From Streptomyces sp. RPA4-2 (GTDB taxonomy: Bacteria > Actinomycetota > Actinomycetes > Streptomycetales > Streptomycetaceae), in the NCBI RefSeq assembly GCF_012273515.2, contig NZ_CP050975.2, positions 3,534,001 through 3,598,000 on the forward strand: a stretch of DNA of 64,000 nucleotides, given 5' to 3'. Positions 25,806-32,840 of the stretch are shown in pieces. Position 1 is the stretch's first letter, and every line of letters starts with the position of its first letter. The notes below the pieces were generated by a model, which worked only from the letters and a program-made list of their open reading frames with translations, did no database searches and had not been told where the DNA came from. Position numbers and translations under genes: made by a program.

Positions 25806-26075
25806 GAGGAGAAGCCTTCCCGATTCGCCGGATAAATGGGTCAGTCCATCATCGCGCACCCCCGCGAGGGGCAACCCGCAGGGCGATCTCAGCGTCCTTG
25901 ACGACCGGGGGCGCTTCCAGGGGCCGTTCACATACGCCGTAAAATCCGGTGCGGCCACGCATCGTCACGGACAGACTTGCGCACCGTCACACCGCGAGCG
26001 GTCGCTCGCGCGGGGCCGGTGCGGCCGCCGGCGGGGCCGCCGGGGCACGACGAGCAGATGGGGGAGGGCGATCGG

Positions 26076-27113
26076 ATGCCGCAGACCGATGCACGGCGGA
26101 CCGGGACGGCACCGCGCGCCCGGCTCGGCCGGTGGACCGAGCTGCGCCCGTCGGCACCTCACCTCCGGCTGCGCTGGTGGACCGAGCTGCCGCTGATAGT
26201 CCTCGTGTACGCGTCGTACTCGGCGGGCCGGCTGCTCGCCCGGGGCGACACGGACAGCGCCGTCGGTCACGGCCTGGAGATCCTGCGCATCGAGAAGGCC
26301 CTCCACCTCAACGCCGAGCACCCGCTCAACCGGCTGTTCACCCGCGAGGCCTGGCTCGGCGTGCCCGCCGACTTCTGGTACGCGTCACTGCACTACCTGG
26401 TGACGCCCGCCATCCTGATCTGGCTCTTCCGCTCCCGCGCCGTCCTGTACCGCGCGGCCCGCACCTGGCTCATGACGTCCACCCTCATCGGTCTGATCGG
26501 CTTCACCCTGATGCCGACCTGCCCGCCCCGGCTGCTCTCGGCGGGCCACGGCTTCGTCGACACGATGGCCCAGTACAGCTCGTACGGCTGGTGGGGCGGC
26601 GAGGCGAGCGCTCCACGGGGTCTCGGCGGCATGACGAACCAGTACGCGGCGATGCCGAGCCTGCACGTGGGCTGGTCGCTGTGGTGCGGAGTGATGCTGT
26701 GGCGCTACGGCCGCACACGCGTCGTCCGGCTCGCGGGCATCGCGTACCCGCTGCTCACCACGATCGTCGTGATGGGCACGGCCAACCACTACTTCCTCGA
26801 CGCGGTCGCCGGCGTCGCGGTGATGGGAACGGGGCTGCTGCTCGCCCCGCAGGTGACACGGCTCGCGGACCGTGTGAAGACACTCCTGGCTACCCGGATC
26901 CCGTGGATCGCGGGCGCCTCCCACGACGCGGGTTCCCACATTGTCAGTGCCGGATGCCAGACTTCCACGGGTGAACGCATTCCCCGACAGCGCGAGTCCC
27001 GCACCGGACCGGGAGCCGACCCCGGTGTCCCTCCCAAGGATGCGGGGGACGGAGCTGCGGACTGGGATCTCCCCTCCTCCAGCGAAGCCGGGAGTCTGGG
27101 GAAGACTCGCTGA
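26076..27113 (+). CDS. PAP2-superfamily (inositol phosphorylceramide synthase-like) membrane protein
   Basis: A 345-aa integral membrane protein. The lipid-phosphatase/phosphotransferase motifs are present: AMPSLHVGWSLW (C2-type His) and TANHYFLDAVAGVAV (C3-type His and Asp), separated by membrane segments. The upstream FTLMPTCPPRLL loop is typical of the AUR1-like branch. Start ATG 26076 has GGAGGG 7 nt upstream. The last 50 residues (from about 26935) are low-complexity and overlap the start of the next gene by more than 140 nt, so they may not be conserved. Likely role is lipid phosphate transfer or phosphatidyl-head-group chemistry. Confidence 0.85.
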   Translation: MPQTDARRTGTAPRARLGRWTELRPSAPHLRLRWWTELPLIVLVYASYSAGRLLARGDTDSAVGHGLEILRIEKALHLNAEHPLNRLFTREAWLGVPADFWYASLHYLVTPAILIWLFRSRAVLYRAARTWLMTSTLIGLIGFTLMPTCPPRLLSAGHGFVDTMAQYSSYGWWGGEASAPRGLGGMTNQYAAMPSLHVGWSLWCGVMLWRYGRTRVVRLAGIAYPLLTTIVVMGTANHYFLDAVAGVAVMGTGLLLAPQVTRLADRVKTLLATRIPWIAGASHDAGSHIVSAGCQTSTGERIPRQRESRTGPGADPGVPPKDAGDGAADWDLPSSSEAGSLGKTR

Positions 27114-28230
27114 GCTGCGCGGCCAGGCGGTACCGCCCAAGGCCCTGGACGCGCGCGCGCTCGCGGCGCTCGCCGCGAACCCCGGATGCGAGCGGCGCGC
27201 CCTGCTCGACGGCGCGGGCGTCGACAAGGCGAAGCTGGCGGAAGGGCTGGGCTCACCGTCCGCCTTCGGCCAGTCCCAGTTCGCGTTCATGCGGGGCAAC
27301 GCGTTCGAGGCCCGGGTCAAGGCGGACGGCGGCGCGGAGCTGCTGCGCCTCGTGCACGAGAGGCTGGACCCCGGCGCCGAGCCGCCCCGGGCCGGGACGG
27401 TCCCCGACCTGACCGCCGCCGGCCCCGAGGGCCGCACGGCCCGTACCGCACTGGCGCTGCGCGACGCCACCGCCGCCGGCGTCTGGACCCTGCTCGACCA
27501 CCCCATGCTCGCCCTCGACGTCGCGGGCTCCCCCGCCTTCCTCGAACCGGACGCCGTCGTCGTGCACCCCGACGGGACCTGGACGGTCGTCGAGATCAAG
27601 TCCTTCCCCATGCTGGACGGCTCGGCCGACCCGGCGAAGGTGGGCGCGGCCGCCCGTCAGTCGGCGGTGTACGTCCTCGCGCTGGAGGAGGTCGCCGCGC
27701 GCCTGGACCCGGCCCCCGACGTCCGCCACCGCGTCCTGCTGGTCTGCCCCAAGGACTTCTCCAACCTCCCGACCGCGTCCGCCGTCGACGTCCGCAAGCA
27801 GCGCGCGGTCACCCGCCGCCAGCTGGACCGGCTCACCCGCGTCGAGGACATCGCGGCCGCCCTCCCCGAGGACACCTGCTTCGCTCCCGGTCTGCCGGCC
27901 GGGCGGCTGACGGCGGCGGTCGAGGCCGTCCCCGCGGCCTACGCCCCCGAGTGCCTGGCCGCCTGCGAGCTCGCCTTCCACTGCCGCGCCCGCTCCCGGG
28001 AAGCGGGCGCGGTGACCGCGCTGGGACGGTCACTGCGCGCGGAGCTGGGCGGTCTGACCACCGTGGACGACGTCCTGGCGGCGGCTCGCGGAGACGCCGG
28101 GGACCCGCAGGATCCGGCGGTCGCCGCCTTGCGCGCAGCGGCCCGGCTGCGGGCGGAGGCCCTGCGGGGACACGAGCCGGCGCACCCCACCGGCCGGGCC
28201 GCGCTTGCGGAGGTGGCCCCTTGTCGCTGA
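26971..28230 (+). CDS. Cas4/Dna2-type Fe-S PD-(D/E)XK (RecB-like) nuclease
   Basis: A 419-aa protein, unannotated by any name I know, with a full set of RecB-family nuclease motifs in order: a first cysteine in NPGCERRALLDG, helix motif RGNAFEARV, Asp in EPDAVVVHPDG, the core E-x-K in WTVVEIKSFP, Q-x3-Y in ARQSAVYVLAL, and a C-terminal cysteine triad in PECLAACELAFHCR. One N-terminal plus three C-terminal cysteines is the 4Fe-4S arrangement of Cas4, AddB and Dna2. Start is uncertain: GTG 26971 overlaps the PAP2 gene and has a weak ribosome-binding site; ATG 27041 is an alternative that loses nothing conserved. It overlaps the next gene by 10 nt, indicating coupled expression with the 540-aa protein and the helicase. 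Confidence 0.85.
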   Translation: MNAFPDSASPAPDREPTPVSLPRMRGTELRTGISPPPAKPGVWGRLAELRGQAVPPKALDARALAALAANPGCERRALLDGAGVDKAKLAEGLGSPSAFGQSQFAFMRGNAFEARVKADGGAELLRLVHERLDPGAEPPRAGTVPDLTAAGPEGRTARTALALRDATAAGVWTLLDHPMLALDVAGSPAFLEPDAVVVHPDGTWTVVEIKSFPMLDGSADPAKVGAAARQSAVYVLALEEVAARLDPAPDVRHRVLLVCPKDFSNLPTASAVDVRKQRAVTRRQLDRLTRVEDIAAALPEDTCFAPGLPAGRLTAAVEAVPAAYAPECLAACELAFHCRARSREAGAVTALGRSLRAELGGLTTVDDVLAAARGDAGDPQDPAVAALRAAARLRAEALRGHEPAHPTGRAALAEVAPCR

Positions 28231-29843
28231 TCGCCACCCTCGCCCGGCTGGAAGCCGTCGAGAGCGGGCGGGCGCAGCCCCTCGCCACCGTCCGCCACCG
28301 GCATCTCTCCGACCGGCCGCTCGTCCTCGTGCCCCTGATCACCGCCGGTGAGGCCGGGGCCCCCCTCGGGGCCCTGGTCGGTACGGACCGGGACGCGCCG
28401 CGGCTGCTGGTCGTGCCGCAGCCCCGGGACCGCGATCTGCGGTTCGCGTTCCTCGCCGAGCTCGCGGACGTCGTCCTGCCGTACGTCGACTCCTACGCGG
28501 ACGTCGTCGAGGCGGCCGAGCGCAACGAGACCGATCCGGAGACCGGGAAGCGGGTCAAGGTCGAGGTCGAGCTGTGCGCGGACGCGCCCCAGCTGATCGT
28601 GCCGAGCCGGGCCGGTGCGGAGTTCGTACGACTCCTCGGGCGCTCCATGCGATTCCGGCGCACCGCGGAGCAGGAGCCGGAGGCACCTCATCCGGCGCCG
28701 CCCCGGGTGCCGCTGCTCGGGCGGTGGCTGACGCACTTCGGGGAGCGGGCCCGGGTGCCCGGTTCCGCTCTGCTGCTCGCCCTCGGCGACGTGCTGTCCC
28801 GGCACTGGGCCACCGGCCAGAGCAGCCTGGAGGACCAGCACCTCGGAGCGCTGCTCGCCTGGATCGATCCCCCGGCGGGCGAGTCGGGCGCGCGGGCGGC
28901 CCTGGAGGCGGAGCTCCGGCGGGACCCCGGCGGCCAGCTCGTCCGGCCGCCCGCGGGACCGGCCACCGATCCCGCCCTCGACAACAAGCTGCTGGCTCCC
29001 GCCATCGAGCGCTACGACCGCGCGCGGACGGCACTCGCCGCCGCCGAGGACGGTCTGGAGGCGGACGACCGGCTCGGTGAACTCACCGCGGCGGAGCGGG
29101 AGATCCGCGCCCTGGTGGAGCGCGTCGCCAAGCCCACCTGGGACGCGGTGTGGCAGGGCCTCGACCTGCTGCGGACCCTGCCCGAGGGGGTGCACGCGGC
29201 CGGCCGGTGGACCCGCGACCGCTGGTCGTTCACCGGTCACCGCGACCGGGTCGTCGCGGGTGAGCCGCCGCAGCCGCGCCGCGACGACGCGGTCACGGCT
29301 GCGAACAAGCTGGCCACGCGCGAGCGCGAACAGGCCCGCCTGGACGCGCAGGAGGCTCTCGACGATCCGCTCGTCATGGCCGGCCGGCGCCTGGTCGGCG
29401 AGGCCTTCACGGGCGAGGTCGTCGACGTCGTCATGGCGTACAGCGAGAGCAGACGCCCGAGCCCCCGCCCCCTGGTGACCGTCCGCACGGACGACCGGCC
29501 GCATCTCGGTGAGCGCGCGAAGGTGTACCGGTCGCTGGACGGCAAGCCGCAGGCGGCGGAATTCGTCGGACCCGCGCAGTCCACCGGACCGCAGGAGCCG
29601 GAGGAGGAGGGCGGTCTGCTCGTGCTGCGGATCGTCGACAAGATGGGCCGCGGCAAGGAGCCCGAGCCCGGTTCCGTGCCGGAGAAGGGGGACCTCGTCT
29701 GCTTCACGCTCTTCGAGCACGAGCAGCGCGGCGGCGCGAAGCTGCCCGACCCGGAGAACACACCGTGGACGCACGGCGGCCCGCCGGGCGACCCCGACGC
29801 CGTACCGCGGCCGGATCCGGTGACGGAGGAGGACATCCTGTGA
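28221..29843 (+). CDS. Unknown 540-aa protein between nuclease and helicase genes
   Basis: Starts at TTG 28221 with GGAGG 7 nt upstream, inside the end of the nuclease gene. The N-terminal half (LVLVPLITAGEAGAPLGALVG; RLLVVPQPRDRDLRFAFLAELADVV) is mixed α/β. The centre is helical and charged (AAEDGLEADDRLGELTAAEREIRALVERVAKPTWDAVWQGLDLL). The C-terminal 120 residues are β-rich (RPLVTVRTDDRPHLGERAKVYRSLDG; GGLLVLRIVDKMGRG; PEKGDLVCFTLFE) and could be an OB- or SH3-like barrel such as the 1B barrel missing from the partner helicase. No catalytic motif is recognised. I infer that it bridges or regulates the nuclease and helicase. Confidence 0.8.
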   Translation: MSLIATLARLEAVESGRAQPLATVRHRHLSDRPLVLVPLITAGEAGAPLGALVGTDRDAPRLLVVPQPRDRDLRFAFLAELADVVLPYVDSYADVVEAAERNETDPETGKRVKVEVELCADAPQLIVPSRAGAEFVRLLGRSMRFRRTAEQEPEAPHPAPPRVPLLGRWLTHFGERARVPGSALLLALGDVLSRHWATGQSSLEDQHLGALLAWIDPPAGESGARAALEAELRRDPGGQLVRPPAGPATDPALDNKLLAPAIERYDRARTALAAAEDGLEADDRLGELTAAEREIRALVERVAKPTWDAVWQGLDLLRTLPEGVHAAGRWTRDRWSFTGHRDRVVAGEPPQPRRDDAVTAANKLATREREQARLDAQEALDDPLVMAGRRLVGEAFTGEVVDVVMAYSESRRPSPRPLVTVRTDDRPHLGERAKVYRSLDGKPQAAEFVGPAQSTGPQEPEEEGGLLVLRIVDKMGRGKEPEPGSVPEKGDLVCFTLFEHEQRGGAKLPDPENTPWTHGGPPGDPDAVPRPDPVTEEDIL

Positions 29844-31174
29844 CCACGGTCTTCGATCCCGGGGCCGCGGCCGCCCGCGCCACCGACGCGATCCTGCGCG
29901 ACACCCTGCACGGCACGCACCGCGGAGTCGTCGTCGACTCCCCGCCCGGCGCCGGGAAGTCGACCCTCGTGGTGCGCGCGGCACTCGAACTCGCCTCCGC
30001 CGGACGCCCCCTGATGGTCATCGCGCAGACGAACTCCCAGGTCGACGACCTGGTCGCACGGCTCGCCGAGAAGGACCCCGAGCTGCCGGTGGGGCGCCTG
30101 CACAGCAGTGACGCCGACCCGTACGACAAGGCACTCGACGACCTGGGGAACGTCCGCAAGTCGGCGAAGGCCACCGACCTGGCGGGCCTCCCGGTCGTCA
30201 TCTCGACCGCCGCGAAGTGGGCCCACGTCAAGAACGTCGAGCCCTGGCGGCACGCGATCGTCGACGAGGCGTACCAGATGCGCTCCGACGCGCTGCTGGC
30301 CGTGGCCGGCCTCTTCGAGCGGGCGCTGTTCGTGGGCGATCCGGGCCAGCTGGACCCGTTCGCCATCGTGGGCGCGGAGCAGTGGGCGGGACTGTCGTAC
30401 GACCCCTCGGCGTCCGCCGTCACGACCCTGCTCGCGCACAACCCCGAACTGCCGCAGCACCGGCTGCCGGTGTCGTGGCGGCTCCCGGCGTCCGCGGCCC
30501 CGCTGGTCTCGGACGCGTTCTACCCGTACACGCCGTTCCGCAGCGGCACGGGACACGGTGACCGGCTGCTGAACTTCGGTGTGCCGTCGGACGGTTCCGG
30601 CCCCGACCTGGTCATCGACGAGGCCGCGGAGACGGGTTGGGGGCTCCTGGAGCTGCCGGCCCGGCACACGCCGCGCACCGACCCCGAGGCGGTACGGGCG
30701 GTGGCCCAGGTCGTACGGCGGCTGCTGGAGCGCGGCGGCGCGGCGACCTCGGAGCGGTCGCCCGATCCGGCACCGCTGACGGCCGACCGGATCGCCGTCG
30801 GCACGGCGCACCGGGACCAGGCGGCGGTGGTGCGGGCGGCGCTGGCGGATCTCGGTGTCACGGACGTCACCGTCGACACGGCGAACCGGCTCCAGGGCCG
30901 CGAGTTCGACGTGACGGTGGTGCTCCACCCGCTCTCCGGGCGGCCGGACGCGACGGCGTTCCACCTGGAGACGGGACGGCTGTGCGTCCTCGCCTCCCGG
31001 CACCGGCACGCGTGCATCGTGGTCTGCCGGGCGGGGGTGACCGAGCTGCTGGACGACCACCCCTCCACCGAGCCCGTGCAGCTGGGTGTCACGGTGAAGT
31101 TCCCGGACGGCTGGGAGGCGAGCCACGCGGTGTTGTCGCATCTGGCGGAGCACCGGGTGAGATGGCGGCCCTGA
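29840..31174 (+). CDS. UPF1-like SF1 helicase/ATPase
   Basis: A 444-aa SF1 helicase. GTG 29840 overlaps the previous stop (GTGA). Motifs appear in order: I DSPPGAGKSTLV, Ia AQTNSQVDDLV, II AIVDEAYQM (DEAY instead of the usual DEAS/DEAG), III LFVGDPGQLDPF, IV VGTAHRDQAAVV, V VDTANRLQGREFDVTVV and VI VLASRHRHACIVV. This matches UPF1/Dna2/RecD2-type SF1B enzymes. The protein is short for the group and lacks obvious 1B or N-terminal accessory domains, which may be supplied by the 540-aa partner. With the Fe-S nuclease it would form a split Dna2/AddAB-like machine. Confidence 0.88.
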   Translation: MTTVFDPGAAAARATDAILRDTLHGTHRGVVVDSPPGAGKSTLVVRAALELASAGRPLMVIAQTNSQVDDLVARLAEKDPELPVGRLHSSDADPYDKALDDLGNVRKSAKATDLAGLPVVISTAAKWAHVKNVEPWRHAIVDEAYQMRSDALLAVAGLFERALFVGDPGQLDPFAIVGAEQWAGLSYDPSASAVTTLLAHNPELPQHRLPVSWRLPASAAPLVSDAFYPYTPFRSGTGHGDRLLNFGVPSDGSGPDLVIDEAAETGWGLLELPARHTPRTDPEAVRAVAQVVRRLLERGGAATSERSPDPAPLTADRIAVGTAHRDQAAVVRAALADLGVTDVTVDTANRLQGREFDVTVVLHPLSGRPDATAFHLETGRLCVLASRHRHACIVVCRAGVTELLDDHPSTEPVQLGVTVKFPDGWEASHAVLSHLAEHRVRWRP

Positions 31175-31656: not shown

Positions 31657-31880
31657 GCGGCACGGTGTGACCGCCGGGGGCCCGCCCCCGGCATCCCCCC
31701 GGCATCTCCGGCTCCTGGCATCCCCGGCCCCAGGCGGCCTCCTCCTGCCAGGTGGACGGCGCCCGCAGGATCTCCTGGCATACGCCGGCGGCGGGTGACA
31801 TACCCCATTCCCGACCTCCCTGTCCCGATTTCCCACAACCCTCGGAGACGGGATGCTCACCGACGGTAGACCTTGTCGTC

Positions 31881-32840
31881 ATGAGCAGCACACGGAACAC
31901 CGTCGGCACCTCCCCCCACGGCACCGGCGCCCCGCTGTCCGACCGGTTCGACGCCGCGGGCGTCACCGCGGAGGGAGCCGCCTGGCTCGCCTCGGCAGGA
32001 ACGTATCCGCGCAGCACCCTCGCCCTCTGGGAGGACCGGCCGACCGCGCCGGTCGTGCTGCCCTGCGGCACCGCTTTCGACGTCGTCAACGCGCCCGCGA
32101 TCTTCGGTCGGCGGATGCTGGACCGCCTGTGGGACGAGGGGCCGGGCTCCGGCCCGGTGGCCGTGTTCCGCGGGCGGATGCTGCTGTTCAGCGCGCCGGG
32201 CACGGCTCAGCGACTCCCGTCGCTCCTGGAGTGGGAGGAGTGGGGTTCCCGCGGCGCCGAGGGCTCGTGGGACGCCTGGGACGCCGGCGCTCTCAGCACC
32301 TTCGACGACGGGGACGGCGACGGCTTCGACGACTGCATCGGCGACATCGACAGCAACAAGGGCACCAATGGCGTCAAGGGCATCGACGACGGCTTCCAGG
32401 ACCCGCGCGAGCCCATGGGGTGGCGCGGCCGTCCGGGTGACGCCGGGCCGTCAGGTGTCGCCGGCGTCACCGGACGGCACGGCGTCACCGGCGATCCGGT
32501 CTGTCCGGGCGGCCTGGGACGCGTCGGCGCGATCCCTCCCCTGCTCTGTCACGGCACCGGCGACGCGGTGACCGTCCCCGCTCCGGGAGACGGCCGTACG
32601 ACCCGCGTCCGCACCCCCGGCGACCGCACCGGCGGTACCGGCCCGGACCCGGCCGGCCGTCCCGAATCCCGCTGGCTGGTGGCCCCCGACACCCGGCATC
32701 CCTGGCTGCCCGGCGCCGAGATCCTGGTCTGGGCGGCCATCCGTGCGGCCCGCGCGGCGGCCTCCGCCGCGGTGCGGATATCGATTTTTCCTCCCGCCGA
32801 TCAGGATGCTAAGGTCTACGACGTCAGCAGGCGCCGCTAG
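31881..32840 (+). CDS. Prim-pol-like (bifunctional DNA primase/polymerase N-domain) protein
   Basis: A 319-aa protein related to the actinobacterial family annotated as bifunctional DNA primase/polymerase. Recognisable blocks: FDAAGVTAEGAAWLASAGTYPRSTLALW, VLPCGTAFDVVNAPAIFGRRMLDRLW, VAVFRGRMLLFSAPGTAQRLPSLLEWEEWG and, late, ESRWLVAPDTRHPWLPGAEILVWAAIRAAR. Between them sits a low-complexity Gly/Asp/Thr-rich insert (about residues 130–260, for example DDGDGDGFDDCIGDIDSNKGTNG) not expected in a polymerase. Catalytic acidic triad is not obvious, so it may be a regulatory relative. The stop codon (TAG 32838–32840) lies inside the tRNA-Lys gene that starts at 32831. Confidence 0.75.
   Translation: MSSTRNTVGTSPHGTGAPLSDRFDAAGVTAEGAAWLASAGTYPRSTLALWEDRPTAPVVLPCGTAFDVVNAPAIFGRRMLDRLWDEGPGSGPVAVFRGRMLLFSAPGTAQRLPSLLEWEEWGSRGAEGSWDAWDAGALSTFDDGDGDGFDDCIGDIDSNKGTNGVKGIDDGFQDPREPMGWRGRPGDAGPSGVAGVTGRHGVTGDPVCPGGLGRVGAIPPLLCHGTGDAVTVPAPGDGRTTRVRTPGDRTGGTGPDPAGRPESRWLVAPDTRHPWLPGAEILVWAAIRAARAAASAAVRISIFPPADQDAKVYDVSRRR

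Follow-up and report, generated by a model that had tools for sequence, protein, structure and literature searches.

Three coupled genes in a 64,000-nucleotide stretch of Streptomyces sp. RPA4-2 (the window; positions 3,534,001 to 3,598,000 of contig NZ_CP050975.2, the single contig of a 9.86 Mb genome) are proposed, with moderate confidence, to encode one Dna2-like helicase-nuclease distributed over three chains. The core chromosomal copy would serve in the processing of DNA ends or forks and the extra copies found in other genomes would serve in defence. The trio appears to be a conserved and unnamed form of a known kind of machine, split into separate chains and repeatedly associated with defence systems that target DNA; the identity of the machine is read from gene content and predicted folds.

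The trio consists of three open reading frames (ORFs) on the plus strand that encode a nuclease, a middle protein and a helicase. The nuclease gene stops at 28230, past the TTG start of the middle gene at 28221, and the middle gene stops at 29843, past the GTG start of the helicase gene at 29840, which gives overlaps of 10 and 4 nucleotides; the helicase gene ends at 31174. A preliminary description had reported these coupled genes and overlaps, which are present in the window as described, and had interpreted them as a DNA end-processing, repair or defence machine; the observation is confirmed and the interpretation is supported. Gene order was inspected in 81 loci, namely 80 related loci and the window, and 79 contain all three genes in the same order, the other two starting within the operon at the beginning of a contig. 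According to alignment, 68 of the 79 full loci retain the 10-nucleotide overlap between nuclease and middle gene.

Three chains and their predicted folds

The nuclease gene (26971..28230) encodes a Cas4/RecB-type PD-(D/E)XK protein whose start is uncertain, as the ORF opens with a TTG at 26941 (the version used for searches, P0001, spans 26941-28230), a GTG at 26971 is possible and the true start may lie later still. The four closest proteins among the matches listed are 391-401 amino acids long, and the alignment with relatives outside Streptomyces starts only near residue 54. The RecB-family motifs that had been claimed are present as LEPD (D204), E218-x-K220 and Q240xxxY244, with the active-site codons lying within 27550..27600 (D204 at 27550-27552, E218 at 27592-27594 and K220 at 27598-27600). 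So are four cysteines spaced as in iron-sulfur (Fe-S) nucleases, one before the nuclease core (C83, codon 27187..27189) and three after it (C338, C342 and C348, codons within 27952..27984) with the spacing C-x3-C-x5-C. These predicted Fe-S ligands are conserved in 39/39 rows of the alignment and are also invariant in alignments of 21 and 65 rows. Conservation of the E-x-K motif stands in 31 of the 39 rows and is lost in the other eight, which form a single clade of extra copies located beside pPIWI-RE genes (type B, below); with that exception the conservation expected of a single system is judged to hold.

In the AlphaFold model the nuclease core (approximately residues 112-312) matches Cas4, MGME1, EXO5, RecB, AddAB and AdnAB. 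At the sequence level the family is harder to place: Pfam PDDEXK_1 matches 6 of 21 nuclease rows with a best E-value of 0.0025, the protein of the window not being among them, and the nuclease has no Pfam family over the cut-off and no match at E <= 1 to NCBIfam or PADLOC (PADLOC-DB 2023). Searches of the PDB with the nuclease and the middle protein, both as single sequences and as profiles, yielded nothing usable; two matches were to designed repeat proteins aligned to a helical stretch and were discarded. Among the 120 relatives listed for each of these two proteins the names, where given, are mostly 'hypothetical protein'.

The middle gene (P0002, 28221..29843) encodes a 540-amino-acid protein that had been described as nameless, and no named family was found for it: it matches nothing in Pfam, NCBIfam or PADLOC over the cut-off or below E 0.1, and nothing at E <= 1 in NCBIfam or PADLOC-DB 2023. 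Its AlphaFold model, with a predicted local distance difference test (pLDDT) score of 86.9, comprises a DnaQ/RNase H-like domain (approximately residues 1-240, 28221..28940), long helices proposed to form a stalk (residues 251-391, 28971..29393) and a β-barrel, putatively of the UPF1/Senataxin type (residues 393-499, 29397..29717). The usual D-x-E is absent from the first strand of the modelled RNase H-like domain, which is probably inactive. The barrel matches Senataxin (Setx) and Sen1 by fold, and there is no UPF1 or Dna2 barrel among the 50 fold matches listed.

The helicase gene (P0003, 29840..31174) encodes a 444-amino-acid superfamily 1 (SF1) core of the UPF1/Dna2 type and is the only member of the trio with Pfam families over the cut-off, which include AAA_11 and AAA_12; UvrD_C_2 reaches E 0.12, below the cut-off. 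The closest solved sequences are Dna2 and SMUBP-2, with Dna2 the best by profile (E 1.3e-9), and the gene is the only match in its own genome at E <= 10. Matches in PADLOC-DB 2023 are all weak, the best (E 8.7e-9) covering part of the MkoC model of 1136 positions. The protein had been called a complete UPF1-like helicase, which is true of the ATPase core and its motifs, including motif I (Walker A, SPPGAGKST, 29939..29965), but not of the barrel and stalk: the core begins approximately 30 residues before motif I and therefore neither element precedes it in the same chain. The earlier suggestion that the middle protein supplies this missing part is supported at the level of the predicted fold, where both a stalk and a barrel are seen, but sequence comparisons were negative.

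Several further observations concern the helicase gene. It is broken into two frames near residue 330 in a Frankia-like locus (L053, G056), which may be an assembly error or real. Degenerate helicase fragments in L072 (G196, Micromonospora) and L078 (G107, family f4) suggest past copies that have decayed in these genomes. Stretches of 72 bp matching the last 24 residues of the helicase are repeated just past the gene in G123:C12 (two copies approximately 269 bp apart) and G133:C1 (three copies approximately 169 bp apart).

Inheritance of the trio and flanks of the core copy

The three genes are inherited as a unit. A survey of 197 Actinomycetes genomes detected the middle protein in 29 and the nuclease in the same 29 (a weak match of 52 residues in G088 was not counted). 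The helicase is matched at E <= 0.001 in 76 genomes, with E-values of 4e-95 or better in those 29 and of 4.8e-14 or worse in the others; all 29 genomes with the middle gene thus hold the complete set, in agreement with the predicted co-occurrence. The genes are adjacent in 26 of the 29 and are split over two contig ends in G152. Sixteen of the 29 are Streptomyces (16/16 sampled). Of the remaining 13, 12 were compared with named proteins, and judging from this similarity, on which the family names given here are based, they lie near Streptosporangium/Planobispora, Micromonospora, Parafrankia/Frankia and Pseudofrankia, with G031 placed in family f4.

Most Streptomyces appear to carry the trio, since the middle protein, queried with a divergent plasmid copy, has a match in 233 of 246 genomes of the genus. 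P0002 was likewise unmatched in the other 13, a negative that proves nothing on its own; the same query matched 29 genomes in the class survey. Eleven of these 13 also lack a helicase match, and in the other two, both fragmented assemblies, the helicase lies near a contig start; this apparent co-loss is to be read with the caveat that the 13 include several fragmented drafts and two genomes less than 90% complete. Across 35 loci the three proteins have correlated pairwise distances (r 0.95-0.97).

A further pattern involves TM0106-type proteins (TIGR03491), in which a RecB-like nuclease is fused to an IGHMBP2-type helicase in a single chain, of 1140 and 1183 amino acids in the two tested. TIGR03491 is over the cut-off in 59 of the 197 genomes, namely in 1/29 trio genomes versus 58/168 others (Fisher p 3e-4, not corrected for phylogeny), so that the two types nearly exclude each other. 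Within families f17 and f18, relatives of Streptosporangium and Frankia, some genera carry the trio and others the TM0106-type protein. P0001 has no match to TIGR03491 at E <= 1, and the best match in its own genome, located elsewhere than the trio, reaches 14.6 bits against a cut-off of 97.45.

The flanks of the core copy are conserved. By tblastn of 80 loci, some of which end at contig ends, a downstream protein of 125 amino acids is found in 70, a Prim-Pol-like ORF in 70 and a GGDEF/EAL gene in 61. These conserved Streptomyces flanks, together with a search of viral contigs that found nothing related to the middle protein, led to the rejection of a mobile-element origin for the core copy; the helicase has no phage relative either. 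In the window the ORF at 31752-32840, downstream of the trio, has a weak match to the Prim-Pol (bifunctional primase/polymerase) N-terminal domain just over the cut-off (E 6e-5), and GGDEF-domain matches of 35-43% identity also occur near the trio genes of L055 (Pseudofrankia), L070 and L074 (Micromonospora). Upstream, an ORF in another frame (25977-27113) overlaps the nuclease start and resembles a PAP2-type membrane phosphatase, as judged by eye; the Pfam search covered a different frame.

Extra copies and their neighbours

Extra copies of the trio occur in two kinds of loci, counted here in 18 of the many copies found: 14 picked on score and on second-copy status, two located on plasmids and two taken from the class survey. 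Both kinds carry a fourth gene of approximately 280 amino acids just upstream of the nuclease, as do four Streptosporangium/Nonomuraea-type loci and G031. No Pfam family was found for the fourth gene in the two tested, profile searches did not find it near the core Streptomyces (seven loci), Frankia-type or Micromonospora copies examined, and a single-sequence search gave no convincing copy elsewhere in the genome of the window.

Type A comprises ten loci (L159, L160, L163-L169 and L064), all ten with a divergently oriented match to SbcD and nine with a match to SbcC, the families of the L159 pair being assigned by Pfam. Both proteins are full-length in seven of the ten. The incomplete pairs are those of L064 (a diverged SbcD and part of SbcC), L160 (both in short pieces) and L165 (171 residues of SbcD and no SbcC match); since the quartet and Wadjet stay open in L160 and L165, SbcCD may be dispensable there. 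Wadjet type I genes lie directly downstream of the copies in L159, L160 and L166, and Wadjet type II genes (JetB2, JetC2) are in the same position in L163, L165 and L167, identified by PADLOC in L163 and by 94-95% identity in the others. Wadjet is thus present in six of the ten loci; L064, L164, L168 and L169 were unmatched by the Wadjet types used as queries, with one ORF each of L164 and L168 also passed through PADLOC. Wadjet as a rule for the extra copies was dropped because in the wider sample SbcD is matched in 10/10 loci versus 6/10 for Wadjet. In the tree the sister of L165 (type II) is a type I locus, L166, and L163 (type II) lies near two more, L159 and L160, which indicates that the pairing with Wadjet arose or was swapped more than once.

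Of the three middle-protein matches in plasmid records two are type A plasmids and one is an 11.9 Mb Nonomuraea record. The distance from the trio to the end of the record is approximately 12-16 kb in L159 (NZ_CP108489.1, a linear 300 kb plasmid), approximately 3-7 kb in L160 (NZ_CP027023.1, a plasmid record marked as circular) and approximately 5.6-9.6 kb in L164 (G284:C1, an 8.27 Mb chromosome in a single contig), so these three type A copies are possibly telomere-proximal. Right after the L164 copy, for which no Wadjet was detected, lies a gene (L164:9728-11188, minus strand) for a 487-amino-acid protein with partial GajB/UvrD-like motor matches.

Type B comprises eight loci (L170-L176 and L063), all of which adjoin homologues of three proteins of L174: a DinG-type protein, a restriction endonuclease (REase) protein and a 573-amino-acid PDDEXK_1 nuclease. 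A PIWI gene is present at L174, the one type B locus inspected for it. The active site of the quartet nuclease is degraded in all eight, by E218L and K220R in six and by D204Q and K220R in two, and these copies retain all four cysteines and the helicase motifs. pPIWI_RE_Y is over the cut-off in 46 of the 246 Streptomyces genomes, at least eight of which have the quartet adjoining. The location of spare copies beside plasmid- and phage-defence genes suggests a shared DNA-chewing module.

Proposed mechanism, alternatives and known systems

What is observed of the trio is its gene content, coupling, co-inheritance, motifs, predicted folds and neighbours; complex formation, the Fe-S cluster, all activities, polarity, substrate and cellular role are inferred. 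It is proposed that the first chain is a Cas4/AddB-style 'iron-staple' RecB nuclease, that the middle chain provides a probably inactive RNase H-like domain together with the stalk and β-barrel of a UPF1-type motor, and that the third chain provides RecA-like domains 1A and 2A. If the trio works as Dna2 does, the motor would draw single-stranded DNA in the 5' to 3' direction through the barrel and feed it to the nuclease, which would trim DNA ends, flaps or broken molecules. In mycelial actinomycetes the core copy may have a conserved core role, of which DNA end or fork processing is the most likely. The extra copies with their fourth gene could do the degrading for loci in which foreign DNA is broken or sensed, either by SbcCD, alone or with Wadjet, or by pPIWI-RE, and would act on the DNA once Wadjet, SbcCD or the pPIWI-RE nuclease has opened it.

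Several findings weigh against this reading. The nuclease model is poor outside its core, the cysteine region included, with a pLDDT of only 58 for the whole model, and its best structural matches show a high root mean square deviation; the fold matches of the barrel are middling and tied with a ribosomal protein, and neither the nuclease nor the middle protein is linked to single-chain counterparts by a significant sequence or profile match. Against profiles of five single-chain TM0106-type proteins the nuclease and the middle protein score no better than column-shuffled controls. The Fisher test of trio versus TM0106-type genomes ignores phylogeny, G031 holds both, and three further trio genomes have weak TIGR03491 matches below the cut-off. 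Common ancestry alone would also yield the correlated divergence of the three proteins, and in two Micromonospora genomes the helicase gene lies approximately 36 and 49 kb from the other two.

A broader scheme is put forward tentatively, as one that is somewhat less likely than not. Helper, iron-staple nuclease, RNase H-like/barrel protein and motor would form a plug-in module for DNA degradation and hence a bacterial counterpart of Mre11-Rad50 together with Dna2: foreign DNA would be opened or sensed by SbcCD, Wadjet or pPIWI-RE and then destroyed by the split Dna2. The core copy would have been domesticated by Streptomyces, and one lineage would have swapped its own nuclease for a neighbouring one while keeping the Fe-S scaffold.

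The helicases whose barrels resemble the middle protein are Senataxin and Sen1, UPF1 relatives act on both RNA and DNA, and extra copies adjoin pPIWI-RE genes with a DinG-type helicase, proposed to act on R-loops (PMC3702460). A split Senataxin-like helicase that together with its nuclease clears RNA-DNA hybrids, or nicks DNA at them, is nevertheless unlikely, since the nuclease is of the DNA-cutting Cas4/RecB/EXO5 type, the helicase is closest in sequence to Dna2 and SMUBP-2, and the neighbouring SbcCD and Wadjet act on DNA (see also PMC10586767). Dedicated anti-phage or anti-plasmid defence by every copy, the core one included, is similarly improbable: the Wadjet genes beside six of ten type A loci, the pPIWI-RE genes beside all eight type B loci and the two plasmid-borne type A copies would fit, but defence genes are patchily spread whereas some copy is found in 233/246 Streptomyces with the core flanks kept. 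In addition, no Pfam defence family was seen among eight window ORFs near the core copy, where no systematic defence search was made, and viral relatives of the middle protein and helicase are lacking as noted above. That three co-transcribed proteins act separately in related DNA jobs, as the two Micromonospora genomes with a distant helicase gene might suggest, is very improbable given the co-loss, the parallel divergence and a barrel-less helicase whose neighbour seems to have a barrel.

If the split Dna2-like enzyme is real, most Streptomyces and several other mycelial families would carry, in genes now annotated as 'hypothetical protein', a type of enzyme whose bacterial members are said to be few and sporadically distributed (PMC7430649). 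A naturally split Dna2 would let nuclease, barrel and motor be tested apart, and the nuclease-dead type B clade would be a test of the role of the Fe-S domain besides cutting. Pairing with SbcCD and two Wadjet types would offer a testable answer to the fate of DNA after Wadjet cleavage; the available text of a Wadjet review (PMC10586767) describes no helicase-nuclease partner. A literature search, mostly without subscription papers and preprints, found no report of such an enzyme in split form, in Streptomyces or linked to Wadjet.

Among known systems, AddAB, AdnAB and RecBCD share the Cas4/RecB-type nuclease fold with the trio. Their motors are of the UvrD-type SF1A, whereas that of the trio is of the AAA_11/AAA_12 UPF1 type and, unlike in AddAB and AdnAB, its nuclease is a separate ORF; identity with AddAB was rejected because the motor is not UvrD-type. 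TM0106-type proteins resemble the trio in having a RecB-like nuclease first and a helicase last, with helicase profiles that match at E 9e-20, and the five aligned contain invariant cysteines before and after the nuclease motif. They also appear to contain, between nuclease and helicase, a putative RNase H-like motif block, in which case the trio would be collinear with them, extra domain included. The archaeal HerA/NurA motor and nuclease belong to families unrelated to those of the trio. The archaeal Mre11-Rad50-HerA-NurA set is nevertheless similar in placing an SbcCD-like pair beside a helicase and a nuclease, as in the type A loci (PMC4351679). The pPIWI-RE three-gene system resembles the type B loci, which adjoin REase, DinG-type and, in L174, PIWI genes, but the available text of PMC3702460 describes neither the quartet nor the second PDDEXK_1 nuclease, and RecB is not mentioned in its main text.

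The closest counterparts are single-chain enzymes. Bad, a Dna2-like enzyme of bacteria, combines an Fe-S cluster with a 5'-3' motor and single-stranded DNA endonuclease activity, occurs sporadically in bacteria and has one class in Mycobacteria and Rhodococcus; a split form or Streptomyces is not mentioned in the available text (PMC7430649). It shares with the trio a four-cysteine iron-staple RecB nuclease (the cluster of the trio being predicted) and a DNA2-type SF1B motor, but has in one chain what the trio has on separate chains, and by analogy the activities reported for Bad would be expected from the three chains together. Eukaryotic Dna2 is likewise a single chain, with an N-terminal OB domain, and is ordered as nuclease, stalk and barrel, and helicase domains 1A and 2A (PMC4716839). 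The trio differs in its three chains and additional RNase H-like domain, but with the predicted stalk and barrel in the middle protein its gene order equals the domain order of Dna2.

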